Source: Pedobacter nyackensis (GTDB lineage Bacteria; Bacteroidota; Bacteroidia; Sphingobacteriales; Sphingobacteriaceae). From it: DNA of 64,000 nt. A program made the position numbers and the translations under genes. Where the stretch lies: positions 124,001 to 188,000 of the forward strand of contig NZ_FWYB01000004.1 of assembly GCF_900176505.1 (NCBI RefSeq), written 5' to 3'. Position 1 is the stretch's first letter; each line of letters starts with the position of its first letter. This document shows, one piece after another, positions 4,863 through 10,185 of this stretch. The notes under the pieces were generated by a model. That model made no database searches. It saw only the letters and a program-made list of their open reading frames with translations, and was not told where the DNA came from.

Positions 4863-5645
4863 ATGAAATTGCGTCAATCCGCCTTTAAATTTGTCTTTAT
4901 GTTAATGATGAGCTTGGTGTCAATATCGCTCTATGCGCAATTGCCTGAAGAAATTCAATGGAAACACCTGGTAAAAACCTACTCCTCAGACAGCACAGAA
5001 ATGGTATTAAGCCTTAACGGAAAAGCATTGCAGGGAAAGTATAAAATTCCTTTTGATGAAGGCGGTTTCGCGTTGTATACCATTAAAAATGGATTGATAA
5101 ACGGAGAGGCTTTTTGGTATTCGAATGCCGGAAATATGGAATGTAAGCTCTATTACAAAAAAGGAGTACGTAACGGTTTAAAGGAAAACTATGATAGTGA
5201 AGGTCATATGTGGCTTCGTCAGGAATACAAGGATGGGAAGCAAGATGGTATAAGTGAAATGTATAGTAATGGCAAGCTAACTAATAAGGCGACCTATAAA
5301 GACGGTAAAAAGCACGGTGGGTCTTTTACCTATACCGGAGAACAGATAACTACAGAAAGTTATTATGAAAATGGTATGCAAAGTGGTCTTTATAAGACTT
5401 ATGCCAATAATGGAAAAGTTATGCTTGAGTCTAATTTCAAAGACAATAAGCGTCATGGTTTGCATACTATGTATTCAAATGGGGTAAAAAACATGGATTT
5501 TATGTACGATAATGGCGAAAAACATGGTGTTGCACACATGTACAGGCCGGACGGTACAGTAGTTTTCGAGCATTATTATCTATTGGGAGAAAAAGTGAGC
5601 AAAGCTGATTTTGAAAAAAATCAACAAAATTCGACTAAAAAGTAG
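4863..5645 (+). CDS. Secreted MORN-like repeat protein (YwqK family)
   Basis: A 260-residue protein with a cleavable signal peptide (hydrophobic residues 10-25, ending SLYAQ) followed by at least six repeats of about 22-24 residues of the pattern F/YxNGxKxGxxxxYxxNG (for example YKDGKQDGISEMYSNGKL, YKDGKKHGGSFTY, FKDNKRHGLHTMYSNG). These are MORN-variant repeats as in the group annotated as YwqK-type antitoxins. The signal peptide makes an antitoxin role against a cytoplasmic toxin unlikely, and a periplasmic or surface scaffold is more plausible. No partner gene lies next to it, and the bidirectional terminator at 5695-5727 closes the unit. Confidence 0.8.
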   Translation: MKLRQSAFKFVFMLMMSLVSISLYAQLPEEIQWKHLVKTYSSDSTEMVLSLNGKALQGKYKIPFDEGGFALYTIKNGLINGEAFWYSNAGNMECKLYYKKGVRNGLKENYDSEGHMWLRQEYKDGKQDGISEMYSNGKLTNKATYKDGKKHGGSFTYTGEQITTESYYENGMQSGLYKTYANNGKVMLESNFKDNKRHGLHTMYSNGVKNMDFMYDNGEKHGVAHMYRPDGTVVFEHYYLLGEKVSKADFEKNQQNSTKK

Positions 5646-7876: not shown

Positions 7877-8089
7877 TTAGTGAGCTGGAGCTGTAGTCTC
7901 AGTAGTAGTTTTAACTGTAGTGTCTTTTACAGCTGAATCAGTAACTGTAGTATCAACAGTAGTTACAGTTGTAGTTGAATCAACAACTGTAGTATCTGTA
8001 GATTCGCCAGTTTTTTCAGATGATTGACAAGCTGCTACTGATAAAGAGATTGCTAAAGCTAAAAAGCCAAATTTAAATGCGTTTTTCAT
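7877..8089 (-). CDS. Small Thr-rich lipoprotein
   Basis: A 70-residue protein with a signal peptide and lipobox (SLSVAAC, Cys21), followed by a low-complexity tail in which threonine, valine, aspartate and serine make up nearly everything (repeats of TTVVDSTTTVTTVDTTVTD type). After processing about 50 residues would remain, tethered to a membrane. No domain is recognisable. It has its own terminator and a strong consensus promoter about 170 bases upstream, so expression is likely high and the 5' leader long. Function unknown; a stress- or envelope-associated role is only a guess. Confidence 0.75.
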   Translation of the reverse strand: MKNAFKFGFLALAISLSVAACQSSEKTGESTDTTVVDSTTTVTTVDTTVTDSAVKDTTVKTTTETTAPAH

Positions 8090-8460
8090 TGTAATTCTAT
8101 TTTAAATAATTAATTAATTTTATTGATTAATACCTGAAAGTTTAAAAGGTAACCCAGTGATTTCAAAAAAAAGTAAAATTATTTAAATAAAAATTCTTTT
8201 TAGTGTTATTTTACTGATTTACAATCGGATAAGTTTTTCAGGTCCTAATTCCGAGCCGCAAATATATCATCATTTATTTATTGTTTTCAAATTTATTTTC
8301 TTTTTATTTTAATAATGTTCGATAATGGGTTATAATGAGTCGGATAGATTCTTTTTCATTTTAGGTACGTTCCTTGTTAATACATGCGTTAAGAGATAAT
8401 AGCAGAAAAAATATTTTTTTTAGCTAACATTGGGTTACCATTCACGTATAAAGGTATTAA
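8090..8460. other. Intergenic region between divergent lipoprotein and sigma factor genes
   Basis: 371 AT-rich bases without a credible ORF. It contains the minus-strand promoter at 8259-8291 and the roughly 160-base leader of the small lipoprotein. No clear consensus promoter is visible for the sigma factor gene. Confidence 0.6.
8259..8291 (-). promoter_or_regulatory. Consensus Bacteroidota promoter for the small lipoprotein
   Basis: On the minus strand TTTG (8291-8288), a 21-base spacer and TATATTTG (8266-8259) match the TTTG / TAnnTTTG promoter. The transcript would start near 8252, leaving a leader of about 160 bases before the ATG at 8089. Confidence 0.6.
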
Positions 8461-8463
8461 TTG

Positions 8464-9030
8464 GTGAGTAATAAGTTAAGCAGTTCAGTTCCAGAAGATA
8501 GAGAGGTTGTTTTAGGCATCTTAAATAACTCAGAAAAAGCACTAAATAAATTGTACACGGGGTATTTTCCGATGATATTACAATTTATATTGAATAATAA
8601 CGGTGATGAGGATGATGCAAAAGATGTGTATCAGGAAGGAATCATTGTTTTATACAATAAAATTAAAAGTGGTAATTTTGAACTAAGCAGTAAACTAAAA
8701 ACGTATATATATTCAGTTTGCAGAAGAATTTGGTTAAAGAAGCTTGCACAGCAAAGCAAAAAATCAAATAACGTTTCGGACTTTGAAGATGTAATGGCGG
8801 TTGAAGTGGATGTTGAACAGCACGAAGAGAAAGATCAGCAATTTGAAAAAATGCAGTCAGCTCTGACTCATCTGGGGGAACCATGTAAGACTATTATTCA
8901 GGATTATTATATAAATAACCTTTCAATGCAGGATATCTGTGAAAAGTTTGGCTATACCAATGCGGACAATGCCAAAACACAGAAGTACAAGTGCCTTCAA
9001 AGGTTAAAAAAGTTATTTTTTCAATCTTAA
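8464..9030 (+). CDS. RNA polymerase sigma factor, ECF type
   Basis: A protein of about 188 residues with sigma region 2 (about residues 25-95, with the DDAKDVYQEGIIVLY acidic helix) and region 4 (about 125-185, with LGEPCKTIIQDYYINNLSMQDICEKFGYTNADNAKTQKYKCLQRLKKLF). The layout is that of extracytoplasmic-function sigma factors, which redirect RNA polymerase to a small regulon. The start is GTG 8464 or TTG 8461; both give the same family N-terminus and no ATG is available. The next gene begins six bases after the stop and encodes a membrane protein with an anti-sigma-like N-terminus, so the two probably form one regulatory unit. Confidence 0.88.
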   Translation: MSNKLSSSVPEDREVVLGILNNSEKALNKLYTGYFPMILQFILNNNGDEDDAKDVYQEGIIVLYNKIKSGNFELSSKLKTYIYSVCRRIWLKKLAQQSKKSNNVSDFEDVMAVEVDVEQHEEKDQQFEKMQSALTHLGEPCKTIIQDYYINNLSMQDICEKFGYTNADNAKTQKYKCLQRLKKLFFQS

Positions 9031-9036
9031 ATTGAT

Positions 9037-10125
9037 ATGAGGAACGAGATAGAATTAGAAGGTATTATTGAAGATTATCTGAATGGTAAACTTAGTGATG
9101 AAGAATTGAAGAAATTTGAACAATTGCGTTTAAATGACCCGGCTGTTGATCATAAGGTTGTTGCTCACAAATTTTTCCTGGAATCATTAAACGATTACGC
9201 TTTAAAGGCTGATCTGAAAAGTAAAATGGACCAGATGCATGGGCAGATTGATGTTGCTGCATTAAGTAAAGAGGTTGGCCCACACCCTTCGTTTATTGTG
9301 AATTTATGGCGTAAAAATAAAGCTGCAGTGGCTGTTGCCGCCTCATTTATTCTGCTAACAGTAGTAACCCTGTATTCTATACAACAAACTACCCAGCAAA
9401 GCGGAAGCGTTGAACTGGTGAGCAGAGAGCTTGCAAGAATTAAAAATTCGCAAAGCAGCCTGATTAGAAAAATAAACTCTGATAACGTAACGAAAAATTT
9501 AAAGCCTGCTAATTTTGGCGGTACAGGCTTTGCCTTAACCGCTAATGGCTATATCCTAACTAATTTACATGTAGTGGATGGCGCAGATTCTGTATATGTG
9601 CAGGACAGTAAAGGCAATTCATTTAAAGCAGTTGTAAAACGTAAAGACTCTCAATACGATTTGGCCATTCTGAAAATTGTAGATGAATCATTCTCACCTT
9701 TATCTAGTCTGCCATACAGATTAAAACAAAATCCAATTGGTATGAGCGAATCGGTATATACGCTTGGTTTTCCTAAGGACGATGCAGTATATGGTGAGGG
9801 GTATGTGAGCTCTAAGACAGGTTATAATGGTGATACTACACAATATCAGGTTTCTATTCCGGTTAATCCAGGAAACAGTGGGGGCCCTTTATTAGATGAA
9901 GACGGTAATATCATAGGCGTAATCAGTGCAAAACAGAACCAGGTTGATGGTGCTACATTCGCTGTTAAATCTAAATACATTCAGGAAGCGCTAAACTCTA
10001 TTCCTAATGATTCATTAGGTAAGAAAGTAGTCTTCAGCAAAAGAAATTCATTGCAAGGCTTAAGCAAGTCTAAACAGGTGAATAAAATAAAGGATTATGT
10101 ATTTATGATCAAGGTTTATAAATAG
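9037..10125 (+). CDS. Membrane-anchored trypsin-like (HtrA-type) protease with anti-sigma-like N-terminus
   Basis: A 362-residue protein in three parts. Residues 1-90 are cytoplasmic and resemble the N-terminus of zinc-less anti-sigma factors (IEDYLNGKLSDEELKKFEQL). Residues about 95-115 form one transmembrane helix. Residues about 155-325 are a periplasmic trypsin-fold protease with an intact triad: H178 (TNLHVV), D208 (YDLAILKI) and S281 (PVNPGNSGGPL). No PDZ domain follows; the last 40 residues are basic. The gene starts six bases after an ECF sigma factor gene. The inferred role is to hold the sigma factor at the membrane and couple release to periplasmic proteolysis, or to sense through a protease fold. 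The fold and triad are seen; the regulatory role is inferred. Confidence 0.85.
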   Translation: MRNEIELEGIIEDYLNGKLSDEELKKFEQLRLNDPAVDHKVVAHKFFLESLNDYALKADLKSKMDQMHGQIDVAALSKEVGPHPSFIVNLWRKNKAAVAVAASFILLTVVTLYSIQQTTQQSGSVELVSRELARIKNSQSSLIRKINSDNVTKNLKPANFGGTGFALTANGYILTNLHVVDGADSVYVQDSKGNSFKAVVKRKDSQYDLAILKIVDESFSPLSSLPYRLKQNPIGMSESVYTLGFPKDDAVYGEGYVSSKTGYNGDTTQYQVSIPVNPGNSGGPLLDEDGNIIGVISAKQNQVDGATFAVKSKYIQEALNSIPNDSLGKKVVFSKRNSLQGLSKSKQVNKIKDYVFMIKVYK

Positions 10126-10144: not shown

Positions 10145-10185
10145 GAAACCCCGAAACTAAATCACTAGTTTCGGGGTTTCTTTTT
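10145..10185 (+). terminator. Intrinsic terminator after the sigma/protease pair
   Basis: GAAACCCCGAAACT (10145-10158) and AGTTTCGGGGTTTC (10167-10180) form a perfect 14-bp stem, followed by five T. Confidence 0.9.

Follow-up and report, generated by a model that had tools for sequence, protein, structure and literature searches.

An ECF sigma factor gene of Pedobacter nyackensis is directly followed by a gene whose product combines, in a single chain, an N-terminal domain of the anti-sigma type, one membrane helix and a trypsin-like protease of the HtrA type. This architecture, the invariance of the catalytic triad, the homology of the N-terminal part to anti-sigma-type domains, the conserved pairing with the sigma gene, and a conserved promoter-like site together with a divergent lipoprotein gene emerge directly from the comparisons described below. 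In functional terms, there is a moderate likelihood that the fusion protein is a class I anti-sigma factor in which a DegS-like serine protease replaces the periplasmic part and cleaves its own chain as the site-1 step, with a very narrow output in the form of a lipoprotein.

In the window, the whole stretch of 64,000 nucleotides that was analyzed, the sigma gene occupies positions 8464..9030 of the forward strand (188 aa, GTG start, stop included), with a TTG at 8461 as a possible alternative start. Its product was identified by profile matches, to Sigma70_r2 in the Pfam scan (E 7e-8) and to sigma70-ECF in the NCBIfam scan (E 3e-24). The fusion gene begins after a spacing of 6 nt and extends over 9037..10125 of the same strand (362 aa, ATG start, stop included). 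An intrinsic-terminator-like site at 10145..10180 (forward strand), rated strong, closes the two-gene operon, among whose ORFs there is no second protease gene. An earlier note on this DNA had placed a sigma gene and a gene for a one-helix trypsin-type protein at 8464-10125, and the ORFs and the matches to Sigma70_r2, sigma70-ECF and Trypsin_2 bear this out. The source genome, of 6.08 Mb, contains 118 Sigma70_r2 matches; at full length the fusion protein is single-copy, its six other matches in the genome being partial.

The Pfam scan assigned residues 162-295 of the fusion protein to Trypsin_2 (E 2.5e-24). The HtrA/DegS-like trypsin domain (residues 158-322; 9508..10002, forward strand) contains the HtrA-type His-Asp-Ser triad in H178, D208 and S281, which had been recognized in the earlier note and did not vary in any of the 94 distinct family members compared (101 relatives and the window protein, with identical sequences merged). 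In an AF2 model, the structure nearest to the head, among the matches listed, is DegS-deltaPDZ (Z 20.4, 2.1 Å, 164 aligned residues), with which HtrA1 ties (Z 20.4). A PDZ domain, which is found at the C-terminal end of HtrA/DegS and whose absence had also been claimed before, received no match in the Pfam scan of the fusion protein. About 40 residues are left C-terminal of the protease domain; they form a conserved tail (10003..10122, forward strand), modeled by AF2 as helix and strand, which ends in ..DYVFMIKVYK and occupies the position of PDZ. By eye, a tail resembling ..DYVFMVKVY also terminates secreted trypsin proteins of Bacteroidota. Five secreted-looking Bacteroidota proteins of 386-609 aa (L046, L047, L048, L049 and L052) carry a similar trypsin-plus-tail module with an end like ..YVxxIKV, preceded in some by N-terminal repeat-like parts. 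The module seems to be mobile between architectures.

The single membrane helix, at about residues 95-115 (9319..9381, forward strand), agrees with the earlier note: the fusion protein has one hydrophobic segment, whose best 19-residue window begins at residue 97, and exactly one such segment is present in 93 of the 94 family members. Because positive charges (LWRKNK) lie on the N side of the helix, the sequence suggests an N-in/C-out topology. The helix is followed by a heptad-patterned juxtamembrane stalk (residues 125-149; 9409..9483, forward strand), whose heptad a/d contrast was matched by 41 of 10000 shuffles; this pattern is the one feature noted that bears on the trimeric assembly of HtrA/DegS proteases. 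AF2 modeled residues 125-147 as a helix at a pLDDT of about 50; for the whole fusion protein the mean pLDDT was 76.4, and that of the membrane and stalk part was about 50, which is low confidence. Within the protein, conservation is lowest in the stalk region (mean entropy 2.53 vs 1.38 for the protease), and no conserved cleavage motif could be identified in it in the alignment of the 94 distinct members.

Residues 1-75 (9037..9261, forward strand) constitute the class I anti-sigma-type domain, assigned by profile matches and placement. The start of the protein had been called FecR- or anti-sigma-like; its anti-sigma character stood, on the evidence of profile and placement, and membership in the FecR family was not supported, since the Pfam scan of the fusion protein, taken up to E 1, contained no match to FecR. 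Nor did Pfam return an anti-sigma match, and the NCBIfam match to 'putative anti-sigmaE' over residues 7-121 was very weak (E 0.15) and far under the cut-off. A profile of residues 1-75 found ten places in its own genome at E<=1, namely itself and nine others. For eight of these nine, a Sigma70_r2 match is located 288-424 nt upstream in the same orientation, a placement with an expectation of about 1.5% per place. Singly, the matches are mostly weak (one at 1e-5, the rest at 0.04-0.9), so that it is their placement behind sigma genes, rather than their E-values, that is telling. The ninth place is an ORF of subtilase-like appearance with no sigma match upstream, and some of the weak relatives may be FecR proteins. 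Two other matches to the sigma profile at E<=1e-25 were obtained in the genome (C10:244896 and C13:143326; 11 of 46 candidates scored), and the ORF behind each of them matches the residue 1-75 domain (E 1e-5 and 0.10, respectively). The ORF behind the sister sigma gene C13:143326-143811 (L202, G000:C13:143846-144040) encodes 90 aa, little beyond the anti-sigma-type domain. Neither a membrane helix nor a periplasmic part is obvious in its product, which makes it a minimal soluble relative.

The sister sigma factors of other genomes provided a broader comparison. In a phylum sample the sigma profile matched at E<=1e-25 in 56 of 296 genomes; among the best 30 loci, the 21 at E<=2.6e-75 all have a trypsin-fused partner, and the nine at 6e-50 to 8e-42 do not, so that profile A2 sets the window clade (E<=2.6e-75) apart from the sister sigmas. 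Eight of the nine sister sigmas are adjoined by a one-helix protein without a trypsin domain (that of L112 is cut by the contig end), and no one-helix protein is located behind the sigma of L113. The residue 1-75 profile matches six of the eight partners at E 2e-11 to 1e-5 in this small ORF set; the L112 partner reached just 0.73 and that of L114 was not among the matches. Two of the eight pass zf-HC2 of Pfam, and a Cys-x2-Cys motif is present in five but absent from L109-L111, the three that are most similar to the domain of the window protein. Compared profile against profile, the window-family domain and the eight sister partners, which had been picked as sigma neighbors, matched at 97.5% (E 5.8e-12, 57 columns), and it is through this match that the N-terminal domain is homologous to known ASDI. 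By this comparison, the same domain, in the same position, belongs to a recognized anti-sigma type in the sister systems, and the periplasmic part has been exchanged. Class I anti-sigma domains have a four-helix fold in contact with the sigma domains; an AF2 model of the sigma factor joined to residues 1-92 folded well and contained confident helices (pLDDT 81, pTM 0.73), with the two chains artificially joined, and speaks neither for nor against binding. The Foldseek and VIA matches listed are sigma factors or proteases and hence uninformative regarding the anti-sigma fold; the VIA matches fall largely on residues 2-193 in the joined model and on residues 150-325 in the protease model.

The proposal of the earlier note that a single protein joins an anti-sigma-type start to a periplasmic protease of the HtrA type is supported by this architecture beside the protein's own sigma factor, and the suggestion that the same gene pair be sought in other genomes was answered in the affirmative: the sigma gene lies directly upstream of the fusion gene in all 102 loci read that encode the fusion protein, a number that includes repeats of one genome or species (e.g. 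L001/L088 and L022/L118) and hence does not stand for 102 species. The pair is thus conserved, contrary to one of the two outcomes that the earlier note had named as refuting its proposal. In the first set of loci, both genes are adjacent on one strand in 69 of 87, separated by -17 to 81 nt, and in each of these 69 pairs the fusion protein is encoded directly beside an ECF sigma factor; the other 18 (L002-L007, L046-L053, L084-L087) are not pairs. In the second set the genes are adjacent in 33 of 42 loci, with the profile match of the L097 partner beginning only at position 40, and nine loci (L109-L117) have no full trypsin-fused partner. The non-pair loci contain other trypsins or other sigmas; for L046-L053, trypsins that align over the protease part only, there is no sigma match in the stretch analyzed.

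The fusion protein is matched at E<=1e-40 in 298 of 300 genomes, an even sample of the order, and in 16 of 17 genera; the adjacency of the pair was read in the fetched loci, a subset of the 298 genomes. The two exceptions, G014 and G356, are also those that lack the sigma factor, which is present at E<=1e-20 in 26 of the 28 genomes searched. Since the genes are adjacent, the joint absence of sigma factor, protease and promoter-like site from these two genomes may reflect one deletion or loss, or an assembly gap. Some trypsin match at E<=1e-10 was obtained in 186 of 198 relatives; within the genus, G014 alone lacks one, and a few genomes (e.g. G015 and G035) show a match that is partial or split. 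Holders named among the matches listed are Pedobacter, Mucilaginibacter, Sphingobacterium, a Sphingobacteriales MAG, Chitinophagaceae/Chitinophagales and Hymenobacter. A contig scan with one catalytic peptide pattern yielded at least 80 loci, 12 of the 80 being family members. The host family consists of bacteria mostly of soil.

New here is a bipartite promoter-like site, GGGTTACC-N14-GTATTAA, common to the sigma gene and the divergent lipoprotein gene. In an alignment of 34 same-genus loci it appeared as a near-invariant block upstream of the sigma gene, with its reverse complement farther upstream. One copy precedes the sigma gene (8432..8460, forward strand) and ends 3 nt before its start, and a second precedes the lipoprotein gene (8127..8155, reverse strand). 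With up to two mismatches, two sites were found within the window, against 0.12 expected. The pattern GGTTACC-N13..15-GTATTA matches twice in the 6.08-Mb genome, both times at this locus, and the control pattern once. A wider regulon in the genome was rejected: up to two mismatches gave 14 sites vs 22 for the control pattern, and the other 12 sites are best read as chance, although weaker promoters could be missed in this way. The -10-like GTATTAA of the forward site ends 3 nt short of the conserved GTG start of the sigma gene, a spacing at which transcription from this site would yield an mRNA with little or no leader; the ATG of the lipoprotein gene is 37 nt past its site.

The strict site occurs in 258 of 300 family genomes, at most five times per genome, and the control pattern in two of the 300 (G011 and G298). 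The strict site is missing from G014 and G356, which have no sigma factor, and from 40 genomes with the fusion protein; 41 of these 42 genomes belong to other genera (22 of the 41 to g68), and one-mismatch versions are present in several loci from genomes without the strict site. When the 27 genomes with both site and pair among the matches listed are considered, 42 of their 46 sites are no more than 5 kb away from the pair and four are elsewhere. A forward site with at most one mismatch is located no more than 60 nt from the start of the sigma gene in 72 of 81 pairs and not in nine. A divergent site accompanies 62 of the 81, and in each of the 62 at least one such site is followed by a small ORF whose product has a lipobox-like cysteine. 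The sigma factor thus seems to control little beyond its own operon and the neighboring lipoprotein gene. In same-family genomes, tandem sites about 350 nt apart were seen, four of them in a row at G395:C22:18690-19759, suggesting local duplication of the lipoprotein gene.

The divergent gene (7877..8089, reverse strand) encodes a PG1828-like lipoprotein of 70 aa (MKNAFKFGFLALAISLSVAAC..) with five D(S/T)(A/I/L/V/M/T) sequons. It matches the NCBIfam model of the PG1828 family lipoprotein, NF050142, with E 2.1e-11 and 44.4 bits, under the cut-off of 50 bits, which is passed by the lipoprotein genes adjoining the pair in G223, G062 and G226. The model is unspecific at E<=0.01, where it matches in 101 of 101 family genomes, six of 14 control genomes and 12 places in the source genome, and the PG1828 assignment therefore leans on the cut-off, passed in seven of the 101 family genomes, and on gene position. 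PG1827, numbered next to PG1828, is presumably SigH, a sigma factor of P. gingivalis; the portions of the literature at hand do not name PG1827. In 65 distinct lipoproteins collected from the loci, 374 of the 389 Asp residues of the mature parts precede Ser or Thr. The sequon occurs 4.7 times per lipoprotein, compared with 1.04 after shuffling (the largest of 2000 shuffles gave 1.4), and one protein has none; a shuffled low-complexity tail is a weak null, but nearly every D is nonetheless paired with S or T. The same motif has been reported as an O-glycosylation motif in Tannerella forsythia, in the part of that work available (PMC8550257), and by its sequence the lipoprotein is probably sugar-coated.

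According to the favored model, the functions of RseA and DegS would be combined in one chain. Residues 1-75 would bind and inhibit the sigma factor and retain it in the cytoplasm, one helix would span the membrane, and the coiled-coil stalk would bear the protease head in the periplasm. The signal would be received at the head, most likely as an unfolded or mislocalized polypeptide in the active site, where it is placed because a PDZ domain is absent. As proposed in the earlier note, the protease domain might read envelope stress directly. Upon signaling, the head would cut the juxtamembrane stalk of its own or of a neighboring subunit, which would be the site-1 step. An M50 protease of the RseP type, for which the one M50 match in the genome is the candidate, would then cut within the membrane and free the sigma factor. 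The free sigma factor would read the bipartite site and raise the synthesis of its own operon and of the divergent, O-glycosylation-sequon-rich lipoprotein. A precedent for the site-1 step is the membrane-anchored HtrAw of Brevibacillus sp. WF146, whose anchor is autoprocessed under induction by substrate: given substrate, the protease sheds its own N-terminal anchor intermolecularly (PMC5359297, in the part available). With the self-removal of an HtrA anchor on record, self-cleavage of the fusion protein is plausible; HtrAw differs from the latter in possessing both a PDZ domain and a motif for Ca binding, and an anti-sigma function is not mentioned in that part of the report. Several points count against the model. 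The stalk is poorly conserved and shows no recognizable cleavage site, and if it is a coiled coil it would need to be opened before it is cut. HtrA enzymes are able to act without signaling. The membrane and stalk part is modeled with low confidence, the N-terminal matches across the genome are mostly weak when taken singly, and the joint absence from G014 and G356 may go back to a single event.

The invariant triad and the heptad stalk would fit equally well with a protease that constitutes the output of the system. The anti-sigma domain would then be real, the head would degrade damaged periplasmic proteins, and a change in its occupancy or oligomeric state would be relayed mechanically via the stalk without self-cleavage, which would also suit a stalk devoid of a conserved cleavage motif. 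We regard this as possible but unlikely: DegS, whose dedicated role is the site-1 cut, is the structure closest to the head among the matches listed, albeit in a tie with HtrA1, and the known membrane anti-sigma factors are mostly freed by proteolysis, as in the RseA route. Other trypsin-like proteins are encoded in the genome, and the head might bind a peptide signal while another protease performs the site-1 cut and the catalysis of the head serves something else; this is improbable, since mere binding would not require an invariant triad and the operon contains no further protease.

The activity of sigma factors depends in some cases on a FecR protein, a situation in which the N-terminal domain would be a pro-sigma or FecR-like positive regulator needed for sigma activity. 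This is very improbable, as the fusion protein has no FecR match and the homologs of its N-terminal domain next to sister sigmas include anti-sigma domains of the zf-HC2 type. Strongly disfavored is an ordinary membrane-anchored HtrA that simply lies beside the sigma gene. It would accord with a sequence search of solved structures, in which the best 60 of 102 matches fall on the protease part of the fusion protein only, but not with the pairing in all loci read, the N-terminal anti-sigma-type homology, the exchange of partners beside the sister sigmas and the shared promoter-like site.

A more specific variant of the self-cleavage model is doubtful. In it, the module would form a closed loop that keeps watch over a mucin-like lipoprotein, whose Thr/Val/Asp-rich tail is tested by the fused protease. 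Tails that are glycosylated or properly exported would be protected, and naked or retained tails would enter the active site and alter the rate at which the stalk is self-cut. The activity of the sigma factor would report on protein O-glycosylation or lipoprotein export, and the nearly private regulon would restore the lipoprotein. If this were true, a single molecule would unite the functions of envelope sensor, site-1 protease and anti-sigma factor, and a single gene would serve as both reporter and output.

The system resembles Sigma-E / RseA / DegS / RseP of Escherichia coli in that it comprises an ECF sigma factor, a one-helix anti-sigma-type protein, a DegS-type protease and a genomic M50 protease. 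It differs in the union of anti-sigma-type domain and protease in one chain, the absence of PDZ, the adjoining O-glycosylation-type lipoprotein and a promoter-like site that, in its own genome, is confined to this locus. With the zf-HC2 (PF13490) class I anti-sigma factors of the phylum it shares the position behind a sister sigma, the homologous N-terminal domain and one membrane helix, but these have no trypsin domain, and the Cys-x2-Cys of five of the eight sister partners is absent from the window protein. Among Bacteroidetes ECF sigma factors just 6% adjoin a recognized class I anti-sigma domain, according to the part of the paper available (PMC7406223); the pair described here may be one of those missed in this figure, because its anti-sigma-type domain is not recognized by Pfam. 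No description of the sigma/fusion pair was recognized among the papers listed in literature searches, although an earlier listing in the main ECF re-classification is possible. The portions of the literature at hand name no trypsin fusion, and the available part of a survey of prokaryotic serine proteases lists trypsin architectures, none of them anti-sigma (PMC2605481). An anti-sigma factor that is probably released by proteolysis is of a known kind; what is new is that the two parts are fused, that the promoter-like sites are so few and that the lipoprotein is of the O-glycosylation type. If the favored model holds, site-1 protease and anti-sigma factor are inseparable in a compact system whose promoter code is testable and comprises very few sites in each genome, and whose output is a lipoprotein predicted to accept glycosylation; envelope sensing in Bacteroidota would then have a clean model.

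Upstream of the locus, positions 4863-5645 of the window encode a protein of secreted appearance that contains short GKxxGxxxxY-like repeats, MORN-like by eye.
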